A stretch of DNA of 64,000 nt. Origin: Streptosporangium carneum (GTDB lineage: Bacteria > Actinomycetota > Actinomycetes > Streptosporangiales > Streptosporangiaceae). The position numbers and the translations under genes were made by a program. Below the pieces are notes generated by a model. That model worked only from the letters and a program-made list of their open reading frames with translations. It made no database searches and was not told the DNA's origin. Below, piece by piece: positions 1 to 36,361 of this stretch (positions are counted from its first letter, which is position 1; each line of letters opens with the position of its first letter). The stretch lies in the NCBI RefSeq assembly GCF_027922005.1, contig NZ_BSEV01000016.1:1-64000 (forward strand), in the 5' to 3' direction.

Positions 1-1
1 G

Positions 2-3000
2 ATCGGGCGGCCGTTCTGGAACACGCGGGCGTATGTGCTCGATGACGGGTTGCGGCCGGTGCCGGCGGGTGTGGCGGGTGAGTTGTACATCGCCGGGGTG
101 GGGTTGGCGCGGGGGTATCTGCGGCGGCCGGGGTTGAGTGCGGAGCGGTTCGTGGCTGATCCGTTCGGCGGTGCCGGTGAGCGGATGTACCGGACGGGTG
201 ATGTGGCGCGGTGGCGGCCGGATGGGAATCTGGAGTTCGTCGGCCGGGCGGACGATCAGGTGAAGGTGCGGGGCTTCCGCATCGAACTCGGCGAGATCGA
301 AGCCAGGGCGGCGGCCGCCGCGGATGTCGCCCGTTGCGCCGTGGTGGTGCGCGAGGATCAGCCGGGAGACCGGCGGCTGGTGGCCTACGCGGTGGCGGCG
401 GAGGGCGCGTCCGTCGTTCCCGCGGTGCTGCGCGCCCGGCTCGCCGAGGAGCTGCCGGACTACATGGTGCCGTCGGCGGTGGTGGTGCTGGACGAGCTGC
501 CGCTCACGGTCAACGGGAAGGTGGATCGGCGGGCGTTGCCGGCTCCTGAGGCGGCGGTGTCGGGGCGTGCGCCCCGTGATCCGCGGGAGGAGATTCTGTG
601 CGGCCTGTTCGCCGAGGTGCTGGGTGTGGCGGGTGTGGGGATCGACGACGGGTTCTTCGATCTGGGTGGGCATTCGCTGCTGGCGACGCGGCTGGCGGGC
701 CGGGTGCGGTCGGTGCTCGGGGTGGAGATGGCGATCCGGCAGGTGTTCGAGACGCCGACCGTGGCCGGGCTGGCCGCGGCGCTGTCCGGGGGCGGGCAGT
801 CACGGGCGGGTGTGCGGGCGGTGACGCCGCGGCCGGAGCGGGTGCCGTTGTCGTTCGCGCAGCGCCGGTTGTGGTTCCTGCACCGGCTGGAGGGGCCGAG
901 CGCGACCTACAACGTGCCGGTGGCGTTGCGGTTGTCCGGGGTGCTGGATGCAGAGGCGTTGCGGGCGGCGCTGGGTGATGTGGTGGCGCGGCACGAGAGC
1001 CTGCGGACGGTGTTCGCCGAGGACGAGGCAGGGCCCTACCAGCGGGTGCTGCCGGTGGAGGCGGCGCGTCCGGTGCTGGAGACGGCGACCTGTGACGAGG
1101 CGGAGCTCGAGGCCGCACTGGGGCGTGCGGCACGCTACGCCTTCGACCTGTCGGCTGAGATCCCGGTGCGGGCCCGGCTGTTCGAGCTGGGGGCCGAGGA
1201 GCACGTGCTGGTGCTGGTGATGCACCACATCGCCACCGACGGCTGGTCGATGCCGCTGCTGGCCCGCGACCTGTCGGCGGCCTACGCCGCCCGTGCCGAG
1301 GGCGGCGCGCCGGCCTGGTCGCCGCTGCCGGTGCAGTACGCCGACTACACGCTCTGGCAGCAGGAGATGCTGGGCTCGGAGGACGACCCCGGCAGTGTGG
1401 TGGCCGGACAGCTGGCGTACTGGACCCGGGCGCTGGCGGGGCTGCCGGAGGAATTGGCGCTTCCGGTGGATCGGCCGCGGCCCGCGCTGCCGACGGGGCA
1501 CGGCGGCACCGTCGAGTTCGAGGTGCCGGCGGAGCTGCACGCACGGCTGGCACGGCTGGCCCAGGACAACCACGCGACCGTGTTCATGGTGATGCAGGCC
1601 GCGGTGGCGACGCTGCTGTCCCGCCTGGGCGCGGGGACGGACGTTCCGCTGGGCACGCCGATCGCGGGCCGCACCGACGACGCGGTGGAGGACCTGGTCG
1701 GGTTCTTCGTCAACACCCTGGTGCTGCGCACCGACCTGTCGGGCGACCCGAGCTTCCGGGAGCTGCTGGGCCGGGTGCGGGAGAGCGACCTTGCGGCCTA
1801 CGCCCATCAGGACCTGCCGTTCGAACGGCTGGTGGAGGTGGTCAACCCCGAGCGGTCCCTGTCCCGCCACCCCCTCTTCCAGGTCATGCTGTCGTTCAAC
1901 AACATCGTCCGGGAGGACGTGCCGGAGGAGTCCGCGCGGATCCCCGGCCTGACCGTGACCGTCGAGCCGATCGACGCCGAAGGGGCGAGGTTCGACCTGT
2001 CCTTCGCCTTCGGCGAGGCGCGCACCGATCAGGGCGACCCCGCCGGGCTCCAGGGTGAGCTGAAGTTCAGCACCGACCTGTTCCTCCCCGGCACGGCGCG
2101 CGCCTTCACTGTCTGGCTGGTCCGCCTGCTCCAGGCGGTGGTCGCCTCGCCGGACCTGCCCGTCGGAGCCTTCGAGCTCCTGGATCCCGCCGAGCGGCGA
2201 CAGATCCTGGTGGAGTGGAACGACACCGCGCGTGAGCCGCTCCCGACGTCGCCGGCGGAGCTGTTCGAGGCGCAGGCGGCGCGGACCCCCGGCGGCACGG
2301 CGCTGGTGACCGAGAACGGGAGCCTGTCGTACGCGGAGCTGAACGCGCGGGCGAACCGGCTCGCGCGCCACCTCATGGATCGGGGCGCGTGCCCCGAGAG
2401 GTTCGTCGGAGTCGCGCTGCCGCGCTCGACGGAGATGATCGTGGCGCTCCTCGCGGTGGCGAAGACCGGCGCCGGATACCTGCCGATCGACCCGGACTAC
2501 CCGCCGGAGCGGATCGGGTCCATGATCGAGGACGCCGATCCGGTGACGGTGCTCTCCACCGCGGAGCTCCTCCCCTCGCTGCCCACGAGCGGCGTCCCGT
2601 GCGTGGCCGTCGACGCTGAGGAGACCGGCCGAGACCTGGCGGGCCGCCCGGAGACGAACCTGACCGCCCGCGAACGACCGGCCGACCCCAAGCCGGAGCA
2701 CCCCGCGTACGTCATTTACACCTCGGGCTCGACGGGCCGGCCCAAGGGAGTGGTCGTGCCCGCCGCCGCCCTGGTCAACTTCTTGGCCGCGATGCAGGAG
2801 CGGTTCGGCCTGGAGGCGGGAGACCGCCTGCTGGCGGTGACCACGATCGGGTTCGACATCGCGGGACTGGAGATCTTCCTGCCGCTGTCGAACGGGAGCA
2901 CGGTGGTCCTGGCCGGATCCGACACGGTGCGCGACCCGCGGGCGCTGGGCGCGCTCATGGCGCGGACCGGAGCGACGGTCGTGCAGGCGACGCCGACCCT

Positions 3001-6000
3001 GTGGCGTGTCCTGCTGGCCGAGAAACCGGCCGGGCTGGCCGGTGTCCGGGCGCTGGTGGGCGGGGAGGCGCTCCCTCCCGACCTCGCCGGGGAGCTGACC
3101 GCCGCCGTCACGTCGGTGGACAACATGTACGGCCCGACGGAGACGACGATCTGGTCGACGGCCGCGACGATCCGCCGCGACGACGCCGACCACCCGCCGA
3201 TCGGGCGCCCGATCGCCAACACCCGGGTGTACGTCCTGGACAGGGCGTTGAAGCCGGTTCCGCCGGGCGTGTTCGGCGAGTTGTACATCGCCGGCGCGGG
3301 GCTGGCCCGCGGTTACTCCAAGCAGCCCGCGTTGACGGCCCAGCGGTTCGTCGCCGGGCCGTACGGCCGGCCGGGCGAGCGCATGTACCGCACCGGCGAC
3401 GTGGTGCGCTGGACGGCCGCCGGTGAGCTGGAGTATCTCGCCAGGGCCGACAACCAGGTGAAGCTGCGGGGCTTCCGCATCGAGCTGGGCGAGATCGAGG
3501 GGGCGCTGGCACGCCACCCCGGCGTCGCGCAGGCCGCGGTGGTGGTCCGCGAGGACCGGCACGGCGACCGGCGTCTGGTCGCCTACGTGGTGCCGACGCA
3601 GGAGGAGGCGGTGCGGCCGGCGGAGCTGCGGCAACTGGTCGCCGCCTCACTGCCCGACTACATGGTGCCGTCGCTGTTCGTGCCGTTGGAGGCGCTGCCG
3701 CTGACGCCCAACGGCAAGCTCGACCGCGGAGCCCTGCCCGAGCCTCGCCACGACGCGGTCGTCAGCGGCCGGCCGCCGCGCAGTCCCCAGGAGGAGATCC
3801 TGTGCGGCCTGTTCGCCGAGGTGCTCGGCCTGGACGCGGGCGGGGCCGACGACGGCCAGGCCAAGGGGAACCCCGTCGGCATCGACGACGGCTTCTTCGA
3901 CCTGGGCGGCCACTCCCTGCTGGCGACCCGGCTGGTGAGCCGCATCAGGTCGGTGCTGGCCGTCGAGCTGTCGATCCGCCAGCTGTTCGAGACCCCCACC
4001 GTGGCCGGCCTGGCGGCGGTGCTGGGCGAGGCCGTCGGCGCGCGGTCGGGCGTGACGCCGGTGACGCCGCGGCCGGAGCGGGTGCCGCTGTCGTTCGCGC
4101 AGCGGCGGCTGTGGTTCCTGAACCACCTGGAGGGGGCGGGCTCCGCCTACAACATGCCGATGGCGCTGCGCCTGTCCGGCCACCTGGAGGAGGCCGCGCT
4201 CCGGTCGGCGTTGCGGGACGTCGTCTCGCGGCACGAGATGCTGCGCACGGTGTTCACCGAGGACGCCGCGGGACCGCGCCAGGTGGTCCTGGACGCGCGG
4301 CTGGCCGCCCCCTCGCTCGACGTCGAGGACGTCACCGAGCGGGAACTGGACGACAGACTGGCCGAGGCCGTCGGACGGGCGTTCGACCTTTCGGCGGAGT
4401 CGCCGTTGCGCGCCCGGCTGTTCCGCCTGGACGCCGAGGAGCACGTGCTGCTGGTGGTGGTGCACCACATCGCCTGCGACGGCTGGTCGATGCCGCTGCT
4501 GGCCCGCGACCTGTCGGTGGCCTATGCGGCCAGGGCGGCGGGCGAGGCGCCGGCCTGGCTGCCGCTGCCGGTGCAGTACGCCGACTACACGCTGTGGCAG
4601 CGGGAGGTGCTGGGTTCGGAGGACGACCCCGGCAGTGTGCTGGCCGGGCAGCTGGCGTACTGGCGGCAGGCGCTGGACGGGTTGCCCGAACAGCTGGAAC
4701 TGCCCGCCGACCGGCCGCGGCCCGCGGTGGCCTCCCAGCAGGGAGCGCGGTTCGTCTTCGAGGTGCCGGCGGAGCTGCACGGGCGGCTGGCACGGCTGGC
4801 CCAGGACAACCACGCGACCGTGTTCATGGTGATGCAGGCCGCGGTGGCGACGCTGCTGTCCCGCTTGGGCGCGGGGAGTGACATCCCGCTGGGCACGCCG
4901 ATCGCGGGCCGTACCGACGACGCGGTGGAGGACCTGGTCGGGTTCTTCGTCAACACGCTGGTGCTGCGCACCGACCTGTCGGGCGATCCGAGCTTCCGGG
5001 AGCTGCTGGGCCGGGTGCGGGAGAGCGATCTTGCGGCCTACGCCCATCAGGACCTGCCGTTCGAGCGGCTGGTGGAGGTGCTCAACCCCGAGCGGTCCCT
5101 GTCCCGCCACCCCCTGTTCCAGGTCATGCTGGCCTTCAACAGCACCGAGCCGGAGACCCCGGAGACGGCTGCGGCAGGCCTGCGCGACCTGACCGTCACG
5201 GGTCACTCCCTGGGCTACGACACGACCAAGTTCGACCTCACGTTCGCGTTCGTGGAGGACCACGGCGCCGGAGGCCTGACCGGGGCCCTGGACTACAGCG
5301 TCGACCTGTTCGACCGGATCAGCGTCGAGACCCTGGCGGCCCGCCTGATCCGGGTGCTGGAGGCGGTCGCGGACGACCCGGAACGGCGGGTGGCGGAGAT
5401 CGACATCCTGGAGGCCGGGGAACGGCGGCGGCTGCTGAGGGAGTGGAACGACAGCGCCCGCCGGGTGCCGGACCTCACGGCGGCGGAGCTGTTCGAGCGG
5501 AACGCCGCCCGCAGGCCCGACGCGACCGCGGTCGTCGTCGACGGCAGGAGCATGTCCTACGCCGAGCTGAACACCCGTGCCAACCGGCTCGCCCGCCATC
5601 TCACAGGGCTGGGCGTCGGCGCCGAGAGCTTCACGGCGATCGCCCTGCCGCGCTCGGAGGAGTGGGTCGTGGCCCTGCTCGCGGTGCTCAAGGCAGGGGC
5701 GGCGTTCGTGCCGGTCGACCCCGACTACCCGGTCGAGCGCATCGAGTTCATGCTGGCCGACAGCGACCCGGCGTTGCTGATCACCACTGAGAAGCTCGCC
5801 GAGCGCCTGCCGCGCCCCGACCTGCCCCGGCTGTCGCTGGACGCGCCGGAGACGGCCGCCGCGGTGGCGGCCCTTCCCGACGGCGACATGGGGGACGGCG
5901 AGCGCCTGCGCCCGCGTCTCCCGCTGCACCCGGCCTACGTGGTCTACACCTCCGGCTCGACCGGAAGGCCCAAGGGCGTGGTGATCCCCCACCCGGGCCT

Positions 6001-8722
6001 CATGGACTGGGCGCAGGCGCAGATCGAACGCCTGGGTGTGGGGCCCGACAGCCGCATGCTGCAGCTCGTGTCGACCAGCTTCGACGCCTCGCTCGGCGAC
6101 CTGTTCGGGGCGCTGCTGTGCGGGGCGGCGACCGTGCTCGCGCCGAACGAGCGGCCCCTGGGGCAGGAGCTGATCGATTTCGTGGTGGAGGCGGGCGTGA
6201 CGCACGTCGCGGTTCCGCCGGCCGTGGTGGCCGACATGCCGGACAACGGCCTGCCGCCGGGGGTCACGCTCACCATGGCGGGAGACGTGTGCCCGCCGCA
6301 GCTCGCCGCACGGTGGGCCGTCGGCCGCCGCCTGGTCAACGGGTACGGTCCCACCGAGGCGACGGTCGGCGCGACGATGTGGGAGTGCGAGCCCGGCGTG
6401 GTCAGGACCACGGTCCCGATCGGACGGCCGCTGCCCAACAAACAGCTGTACGTCCTGGACGACCACCTTCAGCCGGTTCCGGCCGGTGTGAGCGGTGAGC
6501 TGTACATAGCGGGAGGACTCGCACGCGGATACCTCAACCGCTTCTCCCTGACCGCGGAGAGGTTCGTCGCCGACCCGTACGGCGAACCGGGCTCCCGGAT
6601 GTACCGGACGGGCGACGTCGTCCGATGGAACGGCGACGGCGCCCTGGAGTTCGCCGGACGCGTCGACGACCAGGTGAAGCTGCGCGGCTTCCGGATCGAA
6701 CCCGGTGAGATCGACGCGGCGCTGACCGCTCACCCCGAGGTCGACCAGGCCGTCACCGTCGTGCGCGAGGACCGGCCCGGTGAGCGGCGTCTGGTCGCCT
6801 ACGTGGTCCCCGTGCCGGGCGGCCGGACGCCGGAGCCGACGGCGCTCCGTGAACATCTGGCCGGGCGGCTGCCCGGGTACATGGTGCCGTCGGTGTTCGA
6901 GGCGCTCGACTCCCTGCCGGTCACCGTGAACGGGAAGGTCGACCGGCGGGCGCTGCCCGTCCCCGACTACGAGGCCATGCTCGGCGCGCGCGCCCCTCGC
7001 AACGAGCGCGAGGAACTGCTGTGCCGCCTGTTCGCCGAGGTCCTCAGGGTGAGCCGGGTCGGCGTCGACGACGGCTTCTTCGACCTGGGAGGTGACAGCA
7101 TCATGTCCATCCAGCTCGTCAGCCGGGCCCGCAGGGAAGGCCTCGTGCTGAGGGCGCGGGACGTCTTCGAGCACCGGACGGTGGCGGCGCTGGCCGAGGT
7201 GGCCGTCGCCGTGGAGGCGCCCGAGGAGGATCCGGACGCCGGGATCGGGCCGATGCCGGCCACCCCGATCGTGCGCCGGTTCGCCGAGCAGAGCGGCCCG
7301 GTGGACGCGTTCGCCCAGGCAAGGGTGGTCCAGGTGCCCGTCGACCTCGGGCAGGACCGGTTGGTCGCCGCCGTGCAGGCGCTGCTCGACCACCATGACG
7401 CGCTGCGCACACGGTTGTCGGTCGTCGAAGGGACATGGCATCTGGAGATCATGGAGCGGGGCTCGGTGGCCGCGACCTCCTGCGTGACCCGGGTCGACGT
7501 GGCCGGTTTGACCGACGAGGCCCTCGGCGAGGTGATGGCCGAGCGGGCGAGGCGGACGCGGGAGGCCCTCGACCCGGCGAGGGGAGAGCTGGTCAAGGTC
7601 GTGTGGTTCGACCGGGGACCGGCGTCGGCGGGCCTGTTGCTGCTGGTCGTCCACCACCTGGTGGTGGACGGCGTGTCCTGGCGGATCCTGCTGCCGGACC
7701 TGGCCGAGGCGTGGCGGGCGCTGGCCCGGGGCCTCGAGCCCGGACTCCAGCCGGTCGGCACCTCCCTGCGGCGCTGGGCCGAGCTGCTGGTGGAGCAGTC
7801 GGACTCGGCCGCGCGCATCGCCGAGCTGCCCCGGTGGACCGGGATGTTCCAGCGGGAGGACACGCCCCTGGGCGACCGCCCGCTGGATCCGGTCCGTGAC
7901 ACCCACGCCACCGCGGGGCGTCTGTCGATGACGTTGCCGCCGCGGGTGACCGAGGCCGTGCTCACCACCGTGCCGTCGGTGTTCCACGCCGAGGTCAACG
8001 ACGTGCTGCTGGCGGCGCTGGCGATGGCGGTGTCCGAGTGGTGCGAGGGAGAGCGGCAGGAGATCACGGTCGATCTGGAGGGGCACGGCCGGGAGGAGGA
8101 GGCCGTCGGCGGCGCGGATCTCTCACGCACCGTCGGCTGGTTCACCAGCATGTATCCGGTTCGTCTGGAACCCGGTGAGTTCGACAGGAAGGACGCCTTC
8201 ACCGGCGGTCCGGCCGCGGGCGAGATCGTCAAACGCGTCAAGGAACAGCTGCGGGCGACGCCGGACAGCGGGATGGGCTACGGCATGCTGCGCTACCTCA
8301 ACCCCCGGACGGCGCCCATCCTCGCCGAACTCGGACAGGCCCAGATCGGGTTCAACTACCTGGGCCGCTTCGTCGTCGAATCCGTGACCGACGCGAAGGA
8401 CTGGGAGGAGGTCGCCGAGGCCTCGAGCGTGGTCCGCGGTCACGATCCCCGCATGCCCCTGACCCACCCCGTGGTGGTCAACGCCTCCACCCATGACGGC
8501 GCGCACGGCTCGGAGCTGGTGGCGAGCTGGACATGGGCGGGCCTGCTGCTCACCGAGGACCGCGTCCGCGACCTGGCCGAGACGTGGTTCCGCGCGCTGG
8601 AGGCTCTCGTCGACCACGTGGAACGTCCGGACGCCGGGGGTCACACCCCCTCCGACGTGGCGCTCGCCGAGCTCAGTCAGAGCGAGATCGATCTTCTTGA
8701 GGCCGAGTGGAGGACGCAGTGA
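2..8722 (+). CDS. Nonribosomal peptide synthetase, 5'-truncated: (A)-T-C-A-T-C-A-T-E
   Basis: The reading frame is open from base 2, so the gene begins left of the window; residue numbers count from there (2906 aa visible). Domains: C-terminal part of an adenylation domain (1-190), carrier T1 (GGHS near 224), condensation C2 (HHIATDG near 407), A2 (about 735-1255), T2 (near 1304), C3 (HHIACDG near 1488), A3 (about 1815-2320), T3 with GGDS (near 2364), and a C-terminal epimerase (HHLVVDG near 2550). My hand-read pocket code for A2 is DILQVGMIWK, close to known glycine codes. A3 reads DAGATAGVGK, which I cannot assign; its many small residues suggest room for a large side chain. The GGDS carrier before the epimerase is usual, so the A3 residue should be released in D form. 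It hands over to the next NRPS, with which it overlaps by 4 bp. Confidence 0.97.
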
Positions 8723-11700
8723 GCCGTTCCGGACTGCAGGACATCCTTCCCCTGACCCCGCTGCAGGAGGGGCTGCTCTTCCACGGTCTGTTCGACGAGG
8801 AGGCCCCCGACGTCTACGGCGTGCAGCTCGTCGTCGACCTGGAGGGGCCGCTCGACCCCGCCCGGCTGCGGGCGGCGGCCCAGGCGCTGCTGACACGGCA
8901 CGCCAACCTGCGTGCCGGGTTCCGGCACAGGGGCCTGAGCCGGGCGGTGCAGGTCATCCCGCGGGAGGTGAAGCTCCCCTGGCACGAGGCGGACCTGTCC
9001 GGCCTCTCCGAGGCTCGGCGGCACGCGGAGGCCGAGCGGATCGTGGCCGAGGACCGCACGCTCCGCTTCGATCTGGCGGCACCGCCCCTGATGCGGTTCA
9101 CCCTGATCAGAATGGGGTCGTCGGAGTTCCGCTTCGTCCTGTCCAACCACCACATCCTGCTCGACGGCTGGTCCGTTCCGCTGATGCTGCGGGACCTGAT
9201 GGAGCTGTACCTCCGTGAAGGCGACGGGCGTGGGCTGCCGCGGGTCCGGCCGTACCGGGACTACCTGGCCTGGCTCGCGGCCCAGGACCGCCAGGCCGCC
9301 CTCGCCGCGTGGCGGGAGGCTCTCGAGGGGGTCGCCGAACCGACGTCGGTCATGCCGGGACGGCTGCCCGCGCCGTGTGTCCCCGAACGCGTCCACATCG
9401 ACCTGGACACGTCCTCGACCGGGGAGCTGACCGCGTGGGCGCGGGCACGCGGGCTGACCATGAACACCGTCGTGCAGGCGGCGTGGGCCGTCGTGCTCAG
9501 GCAGCTGACAGGCCGTGACGACGTGGTCTTCGGGACGGTGGTCTCCGGCCGTCCCGCGGAGATCGACGGCGTCGAGACCATGGTCGGCCTGTTCGTCAAC
9601 ACGCTGCCGGTGCGGATCCGGCTGCGCCCGGACGAGTCGCTCGCGGCGTTGCTGGAGCGTGTGCAGGAAGAGCAGGCGAGGCTGCTCGACCATCAGTATC
9701 TCGGGCTGACGGAGATCCAGCGGGAGGCGGTCCCGCACCTGGACGGCCCGCTGTTCGACACCATGGCGGTTTTCGAGAACTATCCGGCGGCTCCGAGCGG
9801 CACCGGCGGTCCGGCCGGCGCCGACGACGGGATCAGGGTCGTCTCGATGCGCACCCGGGACGCCACGCACTACCCGCTGACCCTGGTCGCGGCCCCCGGG
9901 AGCCGGCTGCGGCTGCGCCTGGACCACCGCCCGGACCTGTTCGGCGAGGAGGAGGCGCGACGGCTGCTCGGCAGGATGCGGTCGCTGCTGTCCACGCTGA
10001 CGGCCGATCCCGGCGCGGTGGTGGGCCGCCTCGACCTCCTCGACGCGGACGAGCGCCGGAAGGTGGTCGAGGAGTGGAACGACACCGGACGGCAGGGGCC
10101 GGGCCGTACGCTGCCCGAGCTCTTCGAGGACGCAGCCGGACGGGATCCGGCGGCGGTCGCGCTGGTGGACGGCGAGAGCGTGTTCACCTACGGAGAGCTG
10201 GACGCCGAGGCCGACCGGCTGGCTCGCCTGCTGCGGGCCGAGGGGCTGGGCCCGGAACGACTGGCGGCGCTGGTGCTGCCGCGATCGGCCGGCCTGGTGA
10301 TCGCGGCGCTGGCCGTGGTCAAGGCGGGCGCGGCCTTCCTGCCGGTGGACCCGTCCTATCCGCCTGAGCGGATCGCGTACATGCTCGACGACGCGGCGCC
10401 GTCGGTGGTGATCGACGAGGCGTTTCTGGCCGGGGCGGACCGGGCGCGACACGAGCGGCCCGCCGCGGACGCGGAGCGGTCCAGGCCTGAGCTGAGGCAT
10501 CCGGCGTATGTGATCTACACCTCGGGGTCGACCGGACGGCCCAAGGGGGTGGTGGTGACGCACGAGGGCATAGCGGGGTTCGCCGAGGCGCAGCGGGAAC
10601 GGCTGCGGGTGGACGCGCGCAGCCGGGTGCTGCAGTTCGCCTCACCGAGCTTCGACGCCTCCGTGATGGAGATGCTGATGGCCTTCGCGGCGGGAGCGAC
10701 CCTCGTGATCACACCCGAGGGGGTGTATGGCGGAGCCGCGCTGGCCGACGTACTGGAGAACGAGCGGATCACGCATGCGCTGATCCCCCCGGCGGCGCTG
10801 GCGGGAGTGCCCCAGACGCCGCTGGCGGGGCTGCGGACCCTGGCGGTGGGAGGTGAGGCCTGCGGTCCCGAACTGGTCGACCGGTGGGCCGGCGGCCGGA
10901 TGATGGTCAACGCCTACGGCCCGACCGAGGCGACGATCGCCGTGACGATGAGCGATCCCCTGGTCGCGGGGGAGGGCGTCCCGATCGGCTCCGTGCTGAG
11001 GGGGACACGGGCGTACGTGCTGGACGGATGGCTGCGGCCGGTGCCGGCGGGCGTCGCGGGGGAGCTCTACGTGGCCGGCCGCCAGCTGGCCCGCGGTTAC
11101 CTGCGGCGGCCGGGGTTGAGTGCGGAGCGGTTCGTGGCCGATCCGTTCGGCGGTGCCGGTGAGCGGATGTACCGCACGGGTGATGTGGCGCGGTGGCGGC
11201 CGGACGGGAATCTGGAGTTCGTCGGCCGGGCGGACGATCAGGTGAAGGTGCGGGGCTTCCGCATCGAACTCGGCGAGGTCACGGCGGCCGTCGGCCGGTG
11301 CCCGGAGGTCAGGGCGGCGGCCGTGGTGGTGCGCGAGGATCGGCCGGGGGACCGGCGGCTGGTGGCCTACGTGGTGGGCGCGGTGACACCGGAAGAGGTC
11401 CGGGAGGCCGCCCGGAAAGCGGTCCCGGAGTACATGGTGCCGTCGGCGGTGGTGGTGCTGGACGAGCTGCCGCTGACGGCCAGCGGGAAGGTGGATCGGC
11501 GGGCGTTGCCGGCTCCTGAGGCGGCGGTGTCGGGGCGTGCGCCCCGTGACCCGCGGGAGGAGATCCTGTGCGGCCTGTTCGCCGAGGTGCTCGGCGTGCC
11601 GAGCGTGGGCGTCGACGACGGGTTCTTCGACCTGGGCGGGCATTCGCTGCTGGCGACGCGGCTGGCGGGCCGGGTGCGGTCGGTGCTCGGGGTGGAGACG

Positions 11701-21613: not shown

Positions 21614-21636
21614 CGGAGACCGCCGAGGGGCGACAC

Positions 21637-23953: not shown

Positions 23954-23959
23954 CGCGTT

Positions 23960-24946: not shown

Positions 24947-25204
24947 GTCTTGTGACTCCCTTCAACGGTCACTGCGGCGGCCTTCGACGGTCACCGCGGC
25001 GGAGACGATCTCCGACGCCTGGCCGGCCTCACGTGTCCGGCGCGCCGGCCGGGTGAACGCGCCGCCTCGCACCCGGTCACCGGCCGTCCCCCGGGGCGAG
25101 GAACTTACGAAGGTAAAGGGGGGTCATGCCGATCGTTCAATGTGGACGATCTCTGTTCGCCCGTACGGTCGTGGAAAGTCACGGCACAGGGGTGGGAGGA
25201 ACAG

Positions 25205-25969
25205 GTGAACGTCGCGTTTTCGGCAGACCCAGCCGTTTCGGGGGGAGTCGTCGGCTGGGTGGTGGACCTGATGGACTCGCTGGGCGCGCCGGGCGCGGGC
25301 CTGGCGATCGCGCTGGAGAACCTGTTCCCCCCGCTGCCCAGCGAGGTCTTCCTCCCCCTGGCGGGGTTCACCGCGGGCCAGGGGAGGATGAGCCTGTTCG
25401 CCGCGCTGGCGTGGACCACCGCCGGATCGGTCGCCGGGGCGCTCGTGCTCTACCTGCTCGGCGCCCTGCTGGGGCCCCACCGCATCCGGGCGATCGTCGC
25501 GAGGATGCCCCTCATGCGTGTGGCCGACGTGGACCGCACCCTGGCGTGGTTCGCCAAGCACGGCACGAAGGCGGTGTTCCTCGGGCGGCTGATCCCCATC
25601 TTCCGAAGCCTGATCTCCATTCCGGCCGGGGTCGAGCGGATGCGCCTGCCCGTCTTCCTGGGACTCACCGCGCTGGGCAGCCTGATCTGGAACTCGGTGC
25701 TGGTGATGGCGGGATATCTCCTGGGGGACAACTGGGGGGTCGTCGAGGGCTACGTCGGTGTGTTCTCCCGGATCGTGCTGGTGCTGACGGTGCTCGCGGT
25801 CGTGCTGTTCGTCGCCGTCAGGCTGGCCGGCGCCCGTTCGGGCGGGCGGCGCGGCACGGGTGCCAGGAGAGGCGCCAAGGGGTCCGCCGGGACGCGGGCG
25901 GAGACGGACGTCGCGGACCTGCCGCCGGTCGTCAGCGACCATGACGGCGGCGGGCGGCTGCCCAGGTGA
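25205..25969 (+). CDS. DedA-family membrane protein, putative undecaprenyl-phosphate flippase
   Basis: 254 aa from the GTG at 25205, chosen because GGGAGGA lies 4 nt upstream; an in-frame ATG at 25142 lacks one. Family motifs are present: ENLFPPLPSE near residue 38 (re-entrant loop) and GRLIPIFRSL then PAG near 125-140. Four to five hydrophobic segments are followed by a basic C-terminal tail. DedA proteins such as UptA of Bacillus carry undecaprenyl phosphate back across the membrane, and UptA protects cells from amphomycin-type lipopeptides. It sits between the two oxygenase/tryptophan blocks of the NRPS cluster, so I infer a self-resistance role. Its last 38 bp overlap the 3' end of the convergent FMO gene. 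Confidence 0.93.
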   Translation: MNVAFSADPAVSGGVVGWVVDLMDSLGAPGAGLAIALENLFPPLPSEVFLPLAGFTAGQGRMSLFAALAWTTAGSVAGALVLYLLGALLGPHRIRAIVARMPLMRVADVDRTLAWFAKHGTKAVFLGRLIPIFRSLISIPAGVERMRLPVFLGLTALGSLIWNSVLVMAGYLLGDNWGVVEGYVGVFSRIVLVLTVLAVVLFVAVRLAGARSGGRRGTGARRGAKGSAGTRAETDVADLPPVVSDHDGGGRLPR

Positions 25970-27290: not shown

Positions 27291-28111
27291 GGGTGTCCGC
27301 CCGCCGGGGCGTCGCGTTCGAAGAACGCGAGGATCCGCTTGTTCACCCCCGCCGGATCCTCGAGGTAGCCGTAGTGGCCGCACGCGGCCAGCTCCTCGTG
27401 GATCGCTCCCGGGATCGCCTCCGCGACCGCTCTGCCGTGGTGCGGCGGCGTGATCAGGTCGTCGGCGAAGGAGATCACGAGGCAGGGCACGCCGATCCTC
27501 CGGTAGGCGTCCAGCCGGTCGGGCATCGGATCGAGCCGCAGCTGCGCCTGCACCCCCGGCCCCCTCGACAGGGTCAGTTCGAACAGGTCCAGCCAGTCCT
27601 TGGCCTGAAGGTCGTCGTTGAGCGTCGACGGCGACAGGACCTGCAGGGCCTGTACGGCGGCGCGGTAGCGGGCCGGCGGTTCCACCCCGCTGTCGCCCAG
27701 TTCGATCTCTCCGACGGCCAGCGCGGAGCGGACCGTGTCGCTGCGGCCCCGGGTGGCCATCAGCACCGCCTGCCTGACCAGCTCGGGCCTGGCGAGCGCC
27801 AGCTCCTGCGCGACGTAGGCGCCCATCGACGTGCCGACCACCCGGCAGGGCCCGATCCCCAGCCGCTCGATCAGGCCGGCCACGTCGCCGACCATGTCGT
27901 GCACGGTGAAGCCCTCGGCGCACTCGTCGCTGGGCGGGATCCCGCGGTTGTCGAAAGTGATCACCCGGTAGCCCGCCTCGACCAGCGCGGGCACCTGGTG
28001 CAGCTCCCACACCCGGTGCCCCGCGCCGGTGCCCATCACCATGAGCACGGGCTCGCCTGAGCCTGTGTCCTTGTAGTTCAGCCGAATCCCGTTGACCGAG
28101 ATGACAGGCAT
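27287..28111 (-). CDS. Alpha/beta hydrolase, candidate formylkynurenine deformylase
   Basis: 274 aa from the ATG at 28111, chosen for a GGAGG 8 nt upstream and because the family begins at this point. The nucleophile elbow is GTSMGAY near residue 94, the acid is in the SFADDL segment, and the catalytic His is in CGHYGYLED near 248. The fold alone does not tell the substrate. In this operon the step missing between tryptophan 2,3-dioxygenase and the FMO is removal of the N-formyl group, so a kynurenine formamidase is the best guess. An editing thioesterase for the NRPS is the main alternative. The gene overlaps the FMO by 4 bp and follows MbtH by 19 bp. Confidence 0.88.
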   Translation of the reverse strand: MPVISVNGIRLNYKDTGSGEPVLMVMGTGAGHRVWELHQVPALVEAGYRVITFDNRGIPPSDECAEGFTVHDMVGDVAGLIERLGIGPCRVVGTSMGAYVAQELALARPELVRQAVLMATRGRSDTVRSALAVGEIELGDSGVEPPARYRAAVQALQVLSPSTLNDDLQAKDWLDLFELTLSRGPGVQAQLRLDPMPDRLDAYRRIGVPCLVISFADDLITPPHHGRAVAEAIPGAIHEELAACGHYGYLEDPAGVNKRILAFFERDAPAGGHP

Positions 28112-28130
28112 CGTGTCGTCCTCCGGACCG

Positions 28131-28355
28131 TCAGTTCGACCCTGCGGGGCCGTCCATGGCCTCGACAAGGCTCTTGGGCCGCATGTCGGTCCAGTTCTCG
28201 TTGACGTAGTCGAGCGCCTCCTGCCGGGTGGCGTCCGTCAGCACGGTCTCCCAGCCTGCGGGAACCTCGGCGAAGGCGGGCCACAGGGAGTGCTGGCCCT
28301 CGTGGTTGACCAGCACCAGGTAGACGCCCTCTGGGTCCTCGAACGGGTTGCTCAT
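28131..28355 (-). CDS. mbtH: MbtH-like protein
   Basis: 74 aa. The start ATG at 28355 is preceded by AGGAG with 5-nt spacing; a GTG at 28361 would be too close to that site. The family signature is complete: [24 protein letters not shown] and a late [10 protein letters not shown]. MbtH proteins bind NRPS adenylation domains and are needed for their folding or activity. It probably serves the adenylation domains of this cluster. It is encoded in the same minus-strand operon as the exporter and the tryptophan-modifying enzymes. Confidence 0.97.
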
Positions 28356-28417
28356 CTTCACTCCTTCTGGTCGGTGTACGACGTTTTACGGACGGCTTGG
28401 TGTGGGGTCGTGACGTG

Positions 28418-29224
28418 TCACGCGGTCAGGGGCTTGCGGCGTATCCCGGCCATCGCGACGAACTGCGCGAGCACCGCCAGCACCAGGCTGGCCAGCAGCG
28501 CCACGGGCACCTCGGCGCCTCCCGCCGTCGAGAGCGTCAGATGCCGGGAGGCGTTCACCGCGTGGCTCAGCGGGTTGACGGTGGCCACCGCCTGCAGCCA
28601 TCCCGGCAGCACGTCCAGGGGGACGAAGGCGCTCGAGGCGAACGTCAACGGGAAGACCGCGAGGAAGCCGACGGCCTGCATGACCTCCGCGCTGCGGGTG
28701 AACGCCCCGAGGGCGATGAACGTCCACGCCAGGGACCAGGTCACGAACAGGGCGATGAGCAGGGCGAAGGCCATGCCGCGGACCCCGCCGGGAGGGGAGA
28801 AGCCGAGCAGCGCGACCGCGCCGAGCAACATGACCAGGATCTGCACGGCGGCCCGGGCGAGGTCGGCGACGCCGCGCCCGAAGAGCACCCAGTACATGCC
28901 GATGGGCAGCGAGCGGAACCTGGCCATGACGCCGTTCTCCAGGTCCTTGATCAGACCCACGCCCGCGGAGACGGCGGGCCCGATGCCCGTCGTGATCAGG
29001 ATGCCCGGCATCAGATAGTCGATGTACCGCACTCCCTGGGGGAAGTACGCCGGGTTCGCCATGCTGCCGAACACCTCGCTGATGACCAGCAGCATGAAGA
29101 CGGGCTGCAGCAGGCCCAGCACGGTCACCTGCCAGCTGGACACGACCGTGCGCAGGGCACGCCCTGTCAGCACGGTGAACTGGGTGAAGGCGCTGCTTCC
29201 CCGCCAGACGGGAACGGTGGTCAT
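28418..29224 (-). CDS. ABC-2 type transporter permease, DrrB-like
   Basis: 268 aa with six predicted hydrophobic segments and the family signature around YLMPGILITTGIGPA. Start ATG at 29224 has GGAG 6 nt upstream. It follows its ATPase partner by 16 bp. DrrAB-type pairs export antibiotics and often give self-protection, so this is the likely export channel for the peptide of the cluster. The short gap and equal orientation with the dioxygenase and MbtH genes place it in one operon with them. Confidence 0.94.
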   Translation of the reverse strand: MTTVPVWRGSSAFTQFTVLTGRALRTVVSSWQVTVLGLLQPVFMLLVISEVFGSMANPAYFPQGVRYIDYLMPGILITTGIGPAVSAGVGLIKDLENGVMARFRSLPIGMYWVLFGRGVADLARAAVQILVMLLGAVALLGFSPPGGVRGMAFALLIALFVTWSLAWTFIALGAFTRSAEVMQAVGFLAVFPLTFASSAFVPLDVLPGWLQAVATVNPLSHAVNASRHLTLSTAGGAEVPVALLASLVLAVLAQFVAMAGIRRKPLTA

Positions 29225-29240
29225 GGGAGCTCCAGCATGA

Positions 29241-30179
29241 TCAGCTAACCCGGCCCGCGGCCAGGGAGAGGTAGACGTCGTCGAGGGTGGGCTGGGTGAA
29301 GGCGATCTCGGCCGCCGTGGCGCCCGCGTCGTCCAGCGCGCGGACCACTCGTGCCAGGTCGGTCGAGGCCTCCACGGCGACGCTCACCTTGTCGCTCTCC
29401 TCGTCGGCCACGGGAAGCAGCCCCGCCCGTTCCAGCGACGCCACGGCCGCGGCCGTGTGCGCCTGGTCGGTCAGCGTGACGTGCACGGTGTGCTGGCCGA
29501 CCCCGGCCTTGAGCTCGGAGGCGGTGCCGGCCGCGACGATCTTCCCGCCGGAGAGCACCGTGACGGAGTCGGCGAGCCGGTCGGCCTCGTCGAGGTACTG
29601 CGTGGTCAGCAGCACGGCGGTGCCGTCCTTGACCAGCCGTTCGACGATCTCCCACAGGCCGAGCCTGCCGGTGGGGTCCAGCCCGGTGGTCGGCTCGTCG
29701 AGGAAGATCACGTCGGGGTGGCCGACCAGGCTGGAGGCGAGGTCGAGCCGCCTGCGCATGCCTCCCGAGTACGTGCGCGCGGGCCGTCCGGCCGTGTGGG
29801 TCAGCTCGAAGACCTCCAGCAGCTCCTCGGCGCGCGCCTTCGCCTCGCGCCTGCCCGCCCCCAGCAGCCGGGCGATGAGCACGAGGTTGTCCGTGCCGGA
29901 CAGCTCACGGTCCACGGCGACGAACTGCCCGGTGATCCCGATGTGCCGGCGGACCTCGCGGGCCTGGCTCACCACGTCGAAACCGGCGACCCTGGCCGTG
30001 CCGGAGGTCGGCGGCAGCAGGGTGGCGAGGATGTTGATCAGCGTGGTCTTGCCCGCCCCGTTGTGTCCGAGGAGGGCGAGCACCTCACCCTCCGGCACAT
30101 GGAGGCTCACCCCATCCAGAGCTTTGACCTCGCCGAACACCATGCGGATCTCGGTCGCCTCGATCATCGGGGCGGACAT
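29241..30179 (-). CDS. ABC transporter ATP-binding protein, DrrA-like
   Basis: 312 aa from the ATG at 30179. Walker A (GHNGAGKTT near residue 39), signature (YSGGMRRRLDLA near 140), Walker B (VIFLDEPTTGLDP near 160) and the switch region (TTQYLDEADRL) are all intact. The C-terminal 90 residues are the DrrA-type regulatory extension. The start shares one base with the stop of tryptophan dioxygenase (TGATG), indicating coupled translation. It powers the adjacent permease. Confidence 0.95.
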   Translation of the reverse strand: MSAPMIEATEIRMVFGEVKALDGVSLHVPEGEVLALLGHNGAGKTTLINILATLLPPTSGTARVAGFDVVSQAREVRRHIGITGQFVAVDRELSGTDNLVLIARLLGAGRREAKARAEELLEVFELTHTAGRPARTYSGGMRRRLDLASSLVGHPDVIFLDEPTTGLDPTGRLGLWEIVERLVKDGTAVLLTTQYLDEADRLADSVTVLSGGKIVAAGTASELKAGVGQHTVHVTLTDQAHTAAAVASLERAGLLPVADEESDKVSVAVEASTDLARVVRALDDAGATAAEIAFTQPTLDDVYLSLAAGRVS

Positions 30180-31069
30180 CAGATGCCGCTCCGCACAAGC
30201 CAGAGCTCGGGGAAGAATCGGTGCTCGGCGACGCGCCGCAGCCAGCGCACGCCGCTGGTTCCCCCCGTGCCGGCCTTGGACCCGAGCAGGCGCTCGACGG
30301 TGAGCAGGTGCGCGGCCCGCCACCTGCCGAAGTCGTAGGCGATGTCGACGAGGGCCTCGGCGAGCTGGTGCAGCTCCAGGTGCCGGTCGGGGTCCTGGTA
30401 GACGAGCTGCCACGCGTCGGCCACCTCCTGCCGCTCCTCGTACGGCAGCGCCCAGTCACGCTCGGCGCAGTCCTGGGGAACCGGGAACCCGCGCCTGCGC
30501 AGCAGCCGCAGGGCCGCGTCGTAGAGGCTCGGCTCGCCGAGGGCGCGGCGCAGTTCCCGGTGGACGGCGGGGTCGCCGCGGTGCGGGGTCACCATCGCCT
30601 CGTTCTTGTTGCCCAGGATGAACTCCAGGTGCCGGTACATGGAGGACTGCAGCCCCGACCCCTCGCCCAGCTGGTCACGGAAGGCCCCGTACTCGACGGG
30701 GCTGAGCGAGCTGAGCACCTCCCACGTGTCGGTCAGCACGTTCTGCACGCGTGAGAGCCGCCGGAACACCCACAGCGCCCCGGCGACGTCGTCGAGGTCG
30801 AGCAGGTCGCGGGCCTGTCTGGCCTCGGTGTGGGCCAGCTTGAACAGCAGCTCGACGACCTGACTCATGATCAGGAAGGCGGGCTCGCTGAACTCCTTGG
30901 TCCGCGGGTTCTGCAGGGACAGCAGGATGTCGTCGGCGAGGTAGCTGACGAACGGATTGGCGCCGAAGTCGGCGACGGGCTCGCCGTTCGTCAGCCTGGC
31001 GCGCTCCTCGCGTTCCTCCTCCGACAGCGGTCTGACCGGACACCGGTCGTGGCTGGCAGACTTCTCCAT
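30179..31069 (-). CDS. kynA: Tryptophan 2,3-dioxygenase
   Basis: 296 aa. Motifs of the heme dioxygenase are clear: SYLADDILLSLQ near residue 42, GSGLQSSMYRHLEFILGN near 138, and near the end WRAAHLLTVERLLG (the axial heme His) followed by GTGGTSGVRWLR. The enzyme opens the indole ring of tryptophan to N-formylkynurenine. In taromycin a homologue acts on 6-chlorotryptophan to give 4-chlorokynurenine for a lipopeptide. The gene lies 27 bp after a SyrP-like oxygenase and overlaps the exporter ATPase, so it belongs to the peptide cluster rather than to catabolism or NAD synthesis. Confidence 0.95.
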   Translation of the reverse strand: MEKSASHDRCPVRPLSEEEREERARLTNGEPVADFGANPFVSYLADDILLSLQNPRTKEFSEPAFLIMSQVVELLFKLAHTEARQARDLLDLDDVAGALWVFRRLSRVQNVLTDTWEVLSSLSPVEYGAFRDQLGEGSGLQSSMYRHLEFILGNKNEAMVTPHRGDPAVHRELRRALGEPSLYDAALRLLRRRGFPVPQDCAERDWALPYEERQEVADAWQLVYQDPDRHLELHQLAEALVDIAYDFGRWRAAHLLTVERLLGSKAGTGGTSGVRWLRRVAEHRFFPELWLVRSGI

Positions 31070-31096
31070 CGAATCTCTCCCCTGGTCGTCGTCTTG

Positions 31097-32047
31097 TCAG
31101 TCGGACATCGCCACCAGCACGCGGCGCGCGCCGGTGAAGGGACGTCGTCCGTGCCCCACCAGGACGTTGTCGATGAGCAGCAGGTCGCCTTCCCGCCAGT
31201 CGACGTCGACCGCGGCCTCGAGCCCCCGGTCCCGCACCTGCACGGCGTACTCGCCCGGGATGGGGGAGCCGTCCGCGAAGGTCACCGACTGCGGCAGCTC
31301 GTCCTGGGGGAGGATCGCGCTCAGCTCGGCGGCGGTCTCGTCGCCGAGCCCGGCGGGGTGCCACTGGTCGAACTGGTTGAACCACACCTCGGCGCCGGTC
31401 ACCGGATGGCGGACGGTGGCCGGGCGGAGCTGGCTCACCCACAGGCCGCCGTCCGGCCTCCACTTCCAGTCCGCCTCCGACTCGGCGAGGAACGCCTCGA
31501 CCTCTTCGCGGGCGTCGGTCTCGAAGGTGTCCTGCCAGCTCTTGCCGAAGCCGTACCCGTCGTGCAGGTTCTGCAGGTACCGGACGCCTCCGGCGAACGC
31601 CTGCCTGACCTCGGGGTCCAGTGCCTCCAGCCACCGCGCGCCGTCCACGACGGGGGTCGCGCCTCCGGTGGCCGGGGCCTTGGCGCAGAAGAACAGCAGG
31701 CGCGCCGGCCAGCGTCTGGCGTACGAGAGCTCGTTGTGCATCGAGATCGTGAACTCGGGCGGGTACTCGGTCGAGGTGTAGACGTTCTTGCCGACCTTGG
31801 TCCGCGGGGAGTTCCCGTGCACGTAGGCCAGCCGGTTGGGCAGCAGAAGGTCCATCACCTGGTCGAGGGTGTGCTCCTGGACGCCGAAGCCGCGAAAGAC
31901 CACGGCCTTCTCCCGGGCGAGCAGGTCGCCGAGGTCGCCCGCCGCCCGCAGGCAGTCGACGAGACCCTCCGCGTTCGCCGCGACGCCCGCGCCCGCGGGG
32001 TCCAGTTCACATGGCTTCCAACCGTCAGAATTCACGGAGTCCTCCAT
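31097..32047 (-). CDS. TauD-family Fe(II)/2-oxoglutarate oxygenase, SyrP-like (second copy)
   Basis: 316 aa. Metal ligands: HNE in SMHNELSYA near residue 103 and the distal His in VGHGRRPFTG near 298, followed by the 2-oxoglutarate Arg (ARRVL). The protein resembles SyrP, the aspartyl beta-hydroxylase of syringomycin, and is only distantly like the first copy at 23960. The two probably act on different residues or stereochemistries. It is the first gene of the seven-gene minus-strand operon and shares a 300-bp divergent promoter region with the halogenase. Confidence 0.92.
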   Translation of the reverse strand: MEDSVNSDGWKPCELDPAGAGVAANAEGLVDCLRAAGDLGDLLAREKAVVFRGFGVQEHTLDQVMDLLLPNRLAYVHGNSPRTKVGKNVYTSTEYPPEFTISMHNELSYARRWPARLLFFCAKAPATGGATPVVDGARWLEALDPEVRQAFAGGVRYLQNLHDGYGFGKSWQDTFETDAREEVEAFLAESEADWKWRPDGGLWVSQLRPATVRHPVTGAEVWFNQFDQWHPAGLGDETAAELSAILPQDELPQSVTFADGSPIPGEYAVQVRDRGLEAAVDVDWREGDLLLIDNVLVGHGRRPFTGARRVLVAMSD

Positions 32048-34464
<2,417 letters not shown>

Positions 34465-35419
34465 GGCCGGGGGAGGATCGGTCTCGCCGTGCGCGGCGGG
34501 ACCGGTGAGGACGGTCTGGTCGCCGCCACGGTTTCCGGCGTCAGGCCGCGGGGGTTCACATGGTCACTGACCAGGAGTTTTTCACGGCTGTTCATGCGCA
34601 GAGTGCGGAATGTTCACCATTGGCGCCCTATGTAAAAGTGGTTATAGCGGACAGAGTGCAAGGCGTGGCAAACTGCAGATGCGAAGAGGTTCCGTTCACC
34701 GTTTCCGGTGCGAGAACCGCCGCTCTGTGACGCCTTACCGCGTGTCAGGGCTGTGTCATGCCGTGCGGGATCAATCTGCGGCCGTATTCCGCTTCGTCGT
34801 TCGCGGAATGCGGAGGTTGAAGGCGTGCCCGGCTCCCGGGGCGGCGAGCGAGCGCTGGAATTCGGGGAGCGCGTTGGATCGGGGGTGCCAGAGCCGCGTT
34901 CGGCGGTTTCCGTGGTCGACGACGTGCCGTGCGGCCGTCCGGTGGGCGGGGGCTCCGTCCGCTCCGGCCCGTGGCGGGCCGCCGAATATCCTTTCAAGTT
35001 CCTGAAAGAATTGAATTTTGTCGCACGAAATCGGTGACGCTGTGCGACCGGGGAAACGCAGAATGTCGGGAGCGCCGATAAAACAGCTCTTCACGGGGTG
35101 GTTCACGGGGTAACCAGGGTTTTTTGGGGACACCTTAAGCTCGTTGCGGTTGCATGGCCGAAACCTGAAGAATGTGCGCTCAGCTGGTGATCAATCTCCG
35201 TCTACGGCACCACGTGAACCGGGAGCTCCGGCCGACTCCACGGCCGGGATAGTGAGAACCGACGCCAACCAGGGGGTAGTGGCAGTTGAGAACATCGCTG
35301 GGTGAATCACATTCGTCGCCTTCAGTTCCGTTTCCCGCTCAGCGCGGGCGCTCGTTCCGGGCGGCCTGCGGCCGGTGTCCATGGGCACGGGTGGCCGGCG
35401 CCGGTGGGCGAGGGGTGCA
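34465..35419. other. Long non-coding stretch, AT-richer than neighbours
   Basis: I see no convincing gene on either strand over 955 bases; open frames here lack family motifs and ribosome sites. The composition drops in GC around 34560-34680 and 34980-35160. It probably carries the promoter of the regulator at 35420 and the end of the halogenase operon, and may mark the right border of the NRPS cluster. A small RNA cannot be excluded. Confidence 0.5.
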
Positions 35420-36361
35420 GTGAACCGCATCTATTTCACCGTTGAGGATCTGGCCCAGACGCGAATCGTCACCGCGAAGCAGTCCGTCGCGGAGACGCTG
35501 TTCGCCATGGAGCTGATAAGACGCGGAACGGGAGGGGCCTTCTTCGGCGCCTGGCACCGTTCCATCCGCCGACGGCTGGGCACGCGCGCCCACGCCATGG
35601 CGGTTCTGGCGCGTTCGGCGCGGCTCGGCTACGAGCTGCTGCCGCCGGCCAAGGGGACATCGGAGCCTCTCGAGTTGAAGCTGACGTCGCATTGGGGCGG
35701 GGACACCCAACTGACGGCGCTCGTCAACGAGTTCTACAAGGTGGCGCTGGCTCCGTACGGGAAGCCCATTCACGACTATCTGGAGGCCGACCGGATCTTC
35801 AGGGGAGAGGTCCTGCTCAACGGGGGTGTGGACGCGTTGTTCTCGACGCTCCACCCGTGCGTCGCGTGGAATGCGCCGGTGCTCGAGGTCGACGCCCCCA
35901 TGGGGCAGGACATCCACCTGGAGGGTCGAGGCCTGCTCATCATGCCGTCGCTCTTCCTGTTCGACAGGCTGACCGTCATATCCAGCCCCGACCACCCGTA
36001 CGCGCCGCCGCTGCTCATCTATCCGACCACTCTGGACAAAGCCTCCGCCTCGCGGATATGGAACACCCCGGAGGCGAGCGAGCAGGCGCTCAGCGCGCTG
36101 GTCGGCAACACGCGCGCCCGCATTCTCAAGTCGCTCACCAAGAGTTACACCACCAGCGAACTCGGCCGGCTGATCGGCATCTCCGCGGCCGCGGCCAGCC
36201 AGAACACCGCCATCCTGCGCCAGGCGGGCCTCATCACCACCCGCCGGAAGTCCAACGAGGTCTTCCACACGCTCACCCCGCTGGGCGCGGCGCTCGTGCA
36301 GGGCCAGCCGTTCGGGGACCACCAGGTCAGGCTGGAGGTCGAATCCCTGGTCGCCTCCTGA
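35420..36361 (+). CDS. ArsR-like winged-helix transcriptional regulator
   Basis: 313 aa from the GTG at 35420, picked because GAGGGG lies 4 nt upstream. The first 220 residues match the large ligand-sensing part of a common actinobacterial regulator group. Residues 225-300 form a winged helix: LVGNTRARILKSL, YTTSELGRLIGISAAAASQNTAILRQAGLI (recognition helix) and the wing before HTLTPLG. It is the only regulator gene near the NRPS cluster in this window. It may control the cluster or mark its edge; no target site was identified. Confidence 0.85.
   Translation: MNRIYFTVEDLAQTRIVTAKQSVAETLFAMELIRRGTGGAFFGAWHRSIRRRLGTRAHAMAVLARSARLGYELLPPAKGTSEPLELKLTSHWGGDTQLTALVNEFYKVALAPYGKPIHDYLEADRIFRGEVLLNGGVDALFSTLHPCVAWNAPVLEVDAPMGQDIHLEGRGLLIMPSLFLFDRLTVISSPDHPYAPPLLIYPTTLDKASASRIWNTPEASEQALSALVGNTRARILKSLTKSYTTSELGRLIGISAAAASQNTAILRQAGLITTRRKSNEVFHTLTPLGAALVQGQPFGDHQVRLEVESLVAS

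Follow-up and report, generated by a model that had tools for sequence, protein, structure and literature searches.

A partial gene cluster of Streptosporangium carneum predicted to encode a chlorinated calcium-dependent lipopeptide of the gausemycin/cadaside branch

The question raised by the left end of contig C16 (194,100 bp) of the Streptosporangium carneum draft genome is which product is made by the nonribosomal peptide synthetase (NRPS) and tailoring genes that begin at its first bases. The window analysed here is the whole stretch of 64,000 nucleotides formed by bases 1-64000 of that contig. An earlier note on this DNA had listed an NRPS end of the Gly-(D-X)-X-Pro-TE type, a diaminobutyrate (Dab) gene set, a tryptophan halogenase, a flavin reductase, a tryptophan dioxygenase, two SyrP-like hydroxylases and a flavin-dependent monooxygenase, and had proposed a lipopeptide with friulimicin-like assembly and halogenated Trp/Kyn chemistry. 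All of these genes were found, together with a third NRPS (N3, of A-T-TE type), a UptA-like DedA gene and an MbtH gene beyond that list, and the proposed class, assembly and chemistry are supported. The gene families, domain order, pocket codes and conserved neighbourhoods observed in this stretch indicate, with a probability of roughly 80%, that the window carries the 3' half of a cluster whose product is a cyclic, calcium-dependent lipopeptide from the gausemycin/cadaside branch of the amphomycin-friulimicin-malacidin family. The product is most likely chlorinated, is presumed to act as an antibiotic and is apparently a new member of this known family, for which an unusual building block is predicted. 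Chance or artefact as the source of the cluster signal was rejected, since domain matches and conserved neighbourhoods far exceed chance.

The cluster genes occupy bases 2-34464 and open with a plus-strand block of N1, N2, N3, a lyase, a kinase and a PLP/ATP-grasp fusion. The NRPS gene N1 (2..8722, plus strand) is cut at its 5' end by the contig edge, and because the window begins at base 1 of C16 there is no leftward extension along the contig. It encodes A tail-T, C-A(Gly)-T and C-A(DAGATAGVGK)-T-E, where the pocket codes were obtained by alignment of each A domain to GrsA. The first full module gave DILQ-GMIWK as script output, with V supplied by eye at the gap, which we take to be a Gly code. 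The terminal dimodule N2 (8719..15798, plus strand) encodes C-A(DAMLAGAIAK)-T and C-A(DVQFAAHVVK)-T-TE and is 55.9% identical to its S. pilosus homologue over 2421 aligned positions. In Table 7 in the available text of PMC9113097 the Pro code of friulimicin is DVQYVAHVVK, the Kyn code DAWTTTGVGK and the Val code of malacidin DAFWLGGTFK; beside these the CAT-CATTe protein N2 has a Pro-like end of the friulimicin, laspartomycin and malacidin kind, and DAGATAGVGK has 6 of 9 positions in common with the Kyn code, the other three residues being smaller, which would suit a larger ring. In the proposed assembly N1 and N2 would append Gly, an aromatic residue whose module has an E domain, one more residue and Pro; ring closure by the N2 TE would go through the Dab side-chain amine.

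The third synthetase, N3 (15859..19185, plus strand), is an A-T-TE protein whose N-terminal 250 residues hold a weak C-domain trace (E 0.004) and no recognisable full C domain. Its TE motif is GHCAG, with Cys replacing Ser, a feature that it shares with its S. pilosus counterpart. Enzymes of the Cys type, SyrC and CmaE among them, shuttle aminoacyl groups between carrier proteins, and N3 is predicted to activate Dab and to hand it in trans to a C-T module. Such modules, which carry no A domain, were found on contigs C34 and C57 and none in the window. The N3 code DIWQSTADDK is identical to that of the ATTe protein in the S. pilosus cluster; among seven further Streptomyces cassettes three have the same code, three have DIWQSTAVCK and one is unreadable, and in the three DIWQSTAVCK cassettes the nearer oxygenase is SyrP2-like (46-49%). 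A scan with N3 gave 29 loci, with an A-T-TE protein at 58-71% best-segment identity in four Streptomyces loci. According to the available text of PMC9113097 the trans ATTe protein and the C-T module are traits of friulimicin, laspartomycin and malacidin, and N3 is such an ATTe protein.

Among described lipopeptides the closest counterpart is gausemycin, made by Streptomyces sp. INA-Ac-5812 and B188M101, whose published sequence in the available text of PMC12471526 is betaAla-Orn-Ahpb-hGlu-Tyr-Dab-D-Leu-Asp-Gly-Ser-Gly-ClKyn-Ala-Pro, with Dab6 and Gly11-ClKyn12-Ala13-Pro14, and whose cluster is placed there nearest to those of cadaside, malacidin and friulimicin. Thus the earlier view that no described product combines these features fails. 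As is predicted for the window cluster, gausemycin joins Dab in the ring and a Trp halogenase in the cluster to a Gly-ClKyn-X-Pro ending; the domain order here fits the Gly-ClKyn-Ala-Pro end given the proposed contig joins, while the codes for ClKyn and Ala are uncertain. In that order the Tyr-like code of C34, the C-(A remnant)-T module of C57 and its Val/Leu-like C-A-T-E module would parallel gausemycin Tyr-Dab-D-Leu. Gausemycin differs in its 14 residues and in its 4-chlorokynurenine, which corresponds to Trp 6-halogenation, whereas the product here would probably have 13 residues, and the window encodes a halogenase with a motif like that of 5-halogenases and a relative of kynurenine 3-monooxygenases. 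The cadasides, with a nine-residue ring and four exocyclic residues, give the best fit to the proposed contig order (the gausemycins have five and nine), though the available descriptions present them as rich in Glu and hydroxy-Glu and do not name chlorinated kynurenine in them.

The S. pilosus cluster, called amphomycin-type here, reads Asp, C-T, Pip-like, MeAsp-like, Asp, Gly, Asp, Gly, DAFFWGEVFK, Val (DAYWWGGTFK) and Pro (DVQYVAHVVK), where the Asp, Pip-like, MeAsp-like and Gly labels are assumed. Its Val and Pro labels follow Table 7 in the available text of PMC9113097. With the window it shares the ATTe code, the Dab set, the CAT-CATTe ending in Pro, SyrP1, the ABC transporter, MbtH, the hydrolase and the UptA-like gene, and, given the proposed contig joins, the C-T module; in contrast to the window, the S. 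pilosus and WAC08241 regions gave no match for the Trp halogenase, the dioxygenase or the kynurenine monooxygenase. Taromycin, to which the earlier note had likened the Trp genes, is similar in its halogenated Trp/Kyn chemistry and is not the nearest: in the available text of PMC9113097 its terminal dimodule is 3mGlu-Kyn, in contrast to DAMLAGAIAK and a Pro-like code in N2, and the trans ATTe and C-T modules are named there for friulimicin, laspartomycin and malacidin, not for taromycin.

How the producer might tolerate such a compound is suggested by the DedA-family gene (25142..25969, plus strand), which lies next to SyrP1 and is a candidate self-protection gene. The two best NCBIfam matches of its product are models of the undecaprenyl-phosphate translocase UptA (E 8e-33 and 3e-28), at scores below the curated cut-offs (114.1 vs 300 bits and 99.2 vs 250 bits). 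All four closely related amphomycin-type clusters (S. pilosus, S. zaomyceticus, S. glaucescens and WAC08241) have a UptA-like gene downstream of the terminal NRPS, at a distance of about 7 kb. For S. zaomyceticus and S. glaucescens the UptA stretch and the ATTe gene are on different contigs, and the stretch was recognised by NRPS genes 80-92% identical to those of S. pilosus. The available text of PMC12826051 describes amphomycin, friulimicin and laspartomycin C as sequestering undecaprenyl phosphate and ties DedA proteins to undecaprenyl-phosphate recycling by overexpression and sensitivity screens, while DedA genes in clusters were proposed earlier as immunity genes (PMC10127716, in its available part). 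These data hint at, and do not prove, self-protection at undecaprenyl phosphate, in which the UptA-like protein may protect the undecaprenyl-phosphate cycle of the producer. Gausemycin A acts on the membrane according to the available part of PMC9558223, which speaks against a simple carry-over of the amphomycin target.

The strongest competing explanation, to which we would give somewhat less than even odds, is that the UptA-like gene is an ordinary housekeeping copy located here by coincidence. Two further copies, 62-65% identical, occur in the genome itself, and the window protein resembles these and other copies outside clusters about as closely as it does those near the Streptomyces clusters; in three of the four Streptomyces genomes the cluster-near copy is the sole close copy found, and the four clusters are near kin and therefore not four independent cases. 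S. pilosus, however, has one copy near the cluster and another elsewhere (63% identical to the cluster copy). Its cluster copy shares 83-87% identity with those of the other three Streptomyces clusters, which hold the same spot about 7 kb past the terminal NRPS, and the window gene lies inside the cluster with SyrP1 and the monooxygenase as flanks. Elsewhere in the same genome a UptA-like gene is immediately followed by a likely histidine kinase, judged by eye, and a response regulator (L128, G000:C10:224548-226884); the histidine-kinase-like gene is 50% identical to one adjoining the S. pilosus UptA gene.

For the lipopeptide cluster proposed here the 5' half has to be sought on other contigs of the draft genome (9.84 Mb in 184 contigs, rated 100% complete with 2.32% contamination). 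The search within the genome used as query the S. pilosus FAAL-like protein, so labelled by place and domain type, and gave one close match on C34 (54%, next best 42%). The earlier note had stated that lipid starter genes are not in the window, which stands, and they do exist in the genome: C34 carries an aspartate decarboxylase, the FAAL-like gene, an acyl-CoA dehydrogenase, an acyl carrier protein (ACP) and NRPS modules, and stops within an NRPS, its join to the window being a proposal. The decarboxylase (L067, G000:C34:67612-68172) adjoins the FAAL-like gene and could supply beta-alanine, as in gausemycin. The C34 modules read C-A(DPVQIGVVWK)-T, C-T and C-A(DVWSVAMVHK)-T-E // C-A(DASTIAAVCK), the last code presumably Tyr-like. 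Contig C57 (8,540 bp) reads C-(A remnant)-T and C-A-T-E // C-A cut, the C-A-T-E code being Val/Leu-like (DAYWLGGTFK by hand, DAYWLGGFAK by script), and C62 (3,389 bp) reads A tail-T and C-A(DTWTVASVDK). On the reverse strand of C57 (L009) the C-T module retains a short remnant of the lost A domain, while the C-T module of C34 shows none.

According to these readings the cluster start most likely lies on C34 and the middle modules on C57 and C62. The FAAL-like ligase, ACP and acyl-CoA dehydrogenase would start the chain and the modules of C34, C57 and C62 would extend it; the order C34-C57-C62-C16 with one module missing would give four exocyclic and nine ring residues. The order C34-C62-C57-C16 was dropped as it gives a seven-residue ring by count, and three other contigs were set aside, C11 and C29 since they share an edge with each other and C61 at about 39% protein identity.

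It is unlikely that C34 and the window are instead two separate lipopeptide clusters, each half-lost in the draft assembly. In favour of such a split, the common C-T, C-A-T-E // C-A layout of C34 and C57 could reflect parallel clusters, and C34 DNA is 66-74% identical to C57, C62 and the window, save one A-domain stretch of 555 bases (81% to C57) and a further 195 bases at 81-83%, whereas C57, C62 and the window reach up to 87% among themselves; C57 and C62 match the window at about 77-86% in C-domain stretches and at 68-74% elsewhere. The marker genes are, however, complementary: when S. pilosus genes were searched against the window and C34:50001-86079, the FAAL, acyl-CoA dehydrogenase and ACP matched C34 only, and the kinase, PLP enzyme, SyrP1, MbtH, hydrolase and UptA matched the window only, while the ATTe and the ABC ATPase were at about 60% to the window and 31-36% to C34. 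The single close FAAL and the completeness and contamination ratings of the genome likewise speak for one cluster.

In the single divided cluster favoured here the halogenated residue would come from genes at the right end of the window. The FAD-dependent tryptophan halogenase of the Trp-5/6-halogenase group (32237..33925, plus strand; true start probably ~32348) is followed by a flavin reductase (33922..34464, plus strand). Its scores were 863 bits with the Trp 5-halogenase 8fov, 826 with 5hy5 (the 6-halogenase SttH), 816 with 5lv9, 786 with 6nsd and 683 with the 5-halogenase PyrH, a mixed ranking by which overall similarity leaves the chlorination position unsettled. The window motif GFEPYS is like GFETYS of PyrH and unlike GLPPYS of SttH, the three motif residues being F-E-P here, F-E-S in 8fov and F-E-T in PyrH. 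In the available text of PMC5071727 the SttH changes L460F/P461E/P462T push chlorination to C5, with 32% 5-chloro-Trp from tryptophan and 75% 5-chlorination with indolepropionate, and the motif is thus suggestive of chlorination at C5.

The tryptophan 2,3-dioxygenase (30179..31069, minus strand) scores above the Pfam cut-off and below that of the NCBIfam equivalog (319.5 vs 390.7 bits). The FAD monooxygenase (25932..27293, minus strand) was indeed present; the earlier note had listed it as an addition, and its nearest relatives are kynurenine 3-monooxygenases (435 of 453 residues matched, E 5e-80). Trp would be chlorinated, by prediction at C5; the dioxygenase would open its ring towards kynurenine, and the monooxygenase would introduce the 3-hydroxyl group. 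From the GFE motif and the kynurenine 3-monooxygenase relative, 5-chloro-3-hydroxykynurenine is therefore predicted as the building block at the place of the gausemycin 4-chlorokynurenine, as a residue ahead of X-Pro; by ring numbering 5-chloro-Trp leads to 5-chlorokynurenine, differing from the gausemycin residue. In seven Streptomyces stretches, most of them shorter than a whole cluster, the halogenase, dioxygenase and kynurenine monooxygenase gave no match at E 1e-15, and a halogenase (69%) was found in S. glaucescens on a different contig and in none of the other three Streptomyces genomes. That the three enzymes serve a separate small chlorinated metabolite and not the NRPS, as might be thought from their location at the cluster edge and from the chlorinated agelolines, derivatives of 7-chlorokynurenic acid, which a gausemycin producer also yields (PMC12471526, available part), is improbable, for the Trp genes lie scattered among those for the transporter, MbtH and SyrP-type proteins, and the binding pocket ahead of X-Pro resembles the Kyn code.

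Several points weigh against the assignment to a gausemycin/cadaside-like chlorokynurenine lipopeptide. No product was observed; in the fragmented assembly only parsimony joins C34, C57 and C62 to the window, and at least one module is missing by count. The Asp-X-Asp-Gly calcium motif was not seen among the modules found, where only its Gly was present, because the relevant modules are cut or missing; the motif is canonical in friulimicin and laspartomycin and absent in malacidin. The codes DAMLAGAIAK, DTWTVASVDK and DPVQIGVVWK have no residue assignment, the likeness to gausemycin and cadaside is by published description and not by comparison of cluster sequences, and gausemycin ClKyn12 is listed without a D label, in contrast to the E domain of the matching module here. 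As to the Trp branch, the halogenase scores higher with SttH and two related structures than with the 5-halogenase PyrH, and in SttH single changes at the motif residues gave no significant shift of regioselectivity (PMC5071727, available part). Among NCBIfam models the monooxygenase matches VioC best, at a score far under the cut-off, and monooxygenases of its family are common, with matches at E 1e-90 or better in 126 of 341 genomes of the taxonomic family and two more in the own genome. A kynurenine formamidase was not identified; the alpha/beta hydrolase was dropped from this role, since hydrolases 66-70% identical to it occur in clusters where Trp genes were not found. A complete picture, with a 13-residue lipopeptide bearing the D-form of 5-chloro-3-hydroxykynurenine (an o-aminophenol) near the calcium site, a dedicated undecaprenyl-phosphate translocase protecting the producer and a compound that sequesters undecaprenyl phosphate, is doubtful as a whole.

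The Dab set of the window consists of an argininosuccinate lyase-like enzyme (19182..20699), a GHMP-type kinase presumed to act on threonine (20696..21613) and an SbnA/cysteine-synthase-like PLP enzyme fused to an ATP-grasp ligase (21610..23901), all on the plus strand, and Dab would be formed from Thr via the kinase, the PLP enzyme and the lyase. Relatives were sought in 392 Streptomyces genomes, 41 of which gave a kinase match at E 1e-50, and wide flanks (20 to 60 kb each) were taken for 7 of the 25 loci with a kinase of at least 63% identity, plus S. pilosus and WAC08241. All seven further clusters have a homologue of the ATP-grasp part, as do the loci of S. pilosus, S. glaucescens, S. zaomyceticus and WAC08241, and a SyrP1 homologue adjoins the kinase in 8 of 30 Streptomyces loci examined. 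Identity to the S. pilosus cluster is about 60-75% for the kinase, ATTe, SyrP1, ABC ATPase, hydrolase and MbtH, lower for the ABC permease (51%) and the ATP-grasp part (42%), and about 35-45% for the lyase and PLP enzyme, while the PLP/ATP-grasp fusion is nearer (59-67%) to copies in G039, G003, G027 and contig C18. The Dab supply genes therefore seem in part to come from another lineage, which would make the cluster a mosaic.

In the same genome a second Dab-type set (lyase and PLP/ATP-grasp fusion) lies at C18:69768-85653 (L069, L070) beside NRPS genes unlike those of the window, and is probably a separate peptide cluster; C18, whose fusion is 59% identical, was considered as a part of the present cluster and dropped, as its NRPS proteins are only 27-35% identical to those of the window. 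In a complete genome of the same genus the lyase, PLP/ATP-grasp, ATTe, kinase and SyrP1 genes (L085-L087, G003:C1:191449-224269) stand near a 5380-residue NRPS about 41-45% identical to those of the window, and with so distant an NRPS alongside, these genes may travel together as one cassette. In Streptomyces, Dab cassettes of a second lineage were seen (L155-L159; kinase 52-55%, lyase 49-55% and PLP enzyme 65-70% to the window).

Downstream of the Dab set SyrP1 (23960..24946, minus strand), a TauD/SyrP-type oxygenase, and the DedA gene precede a minus-strand block with the monooxygenase, the alpha/beta hydrolase (27287..28168; true start probably ~28111), which is also found beside the terminal NRPS in amphomycin-type clusters, the MbtH-like protein (28131..28361), the ABC-2 transporter permease (28418..29224), the ABC transporter ATPase (29241..30413; true start probably ~30170), the Trp dioxygenase and the second TauD/SyrP-type oxygenase SyrP2 (31097..32047). 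Of 16 genomes in the genus, 8 (this one among them) gave a SyrP2 match at E 1e-60, with 46% as the highest identity outside this genome. The recognisable cluster genes stop at 34464 with the plus-strand halogenase and flavin reductase, and at 35375-36361 weak helix-turn-helix models, all below cut-off, are the sole matches. To the right of 36 kb YceI, Gln_deamidase_2 (37134-38291), ADP-ribosylglycohydrolase, PP2C and MFS genes were found, with a fused ABC transporter, a PhyH-type oxygenase, a phosphoribosyltransferase and a methyltransferase at 45719-51097 among the methyltransferases of this part; a link to the cluster is not evident. No glycosyltransferase was found among the scanned window genes, the remainder of C34 not being scanned for one.

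Calcium-dependent lipopeptides are studied against resistant Gram-positive bacteria, and joined Dab and chlorokynurenine chemistry is already described in gausemycin. To this family the cluster would add a predicted new building block, a chlorinated and hydroxylated kynurenine, and its genes hint at a target ahead of any isolated compound. Since a UptA-like gene lies inside or close to five such clusters (four being near kin), the idea of DedA proteins as immunity factors put forward in the available part of PMC10127716 becomes testable.

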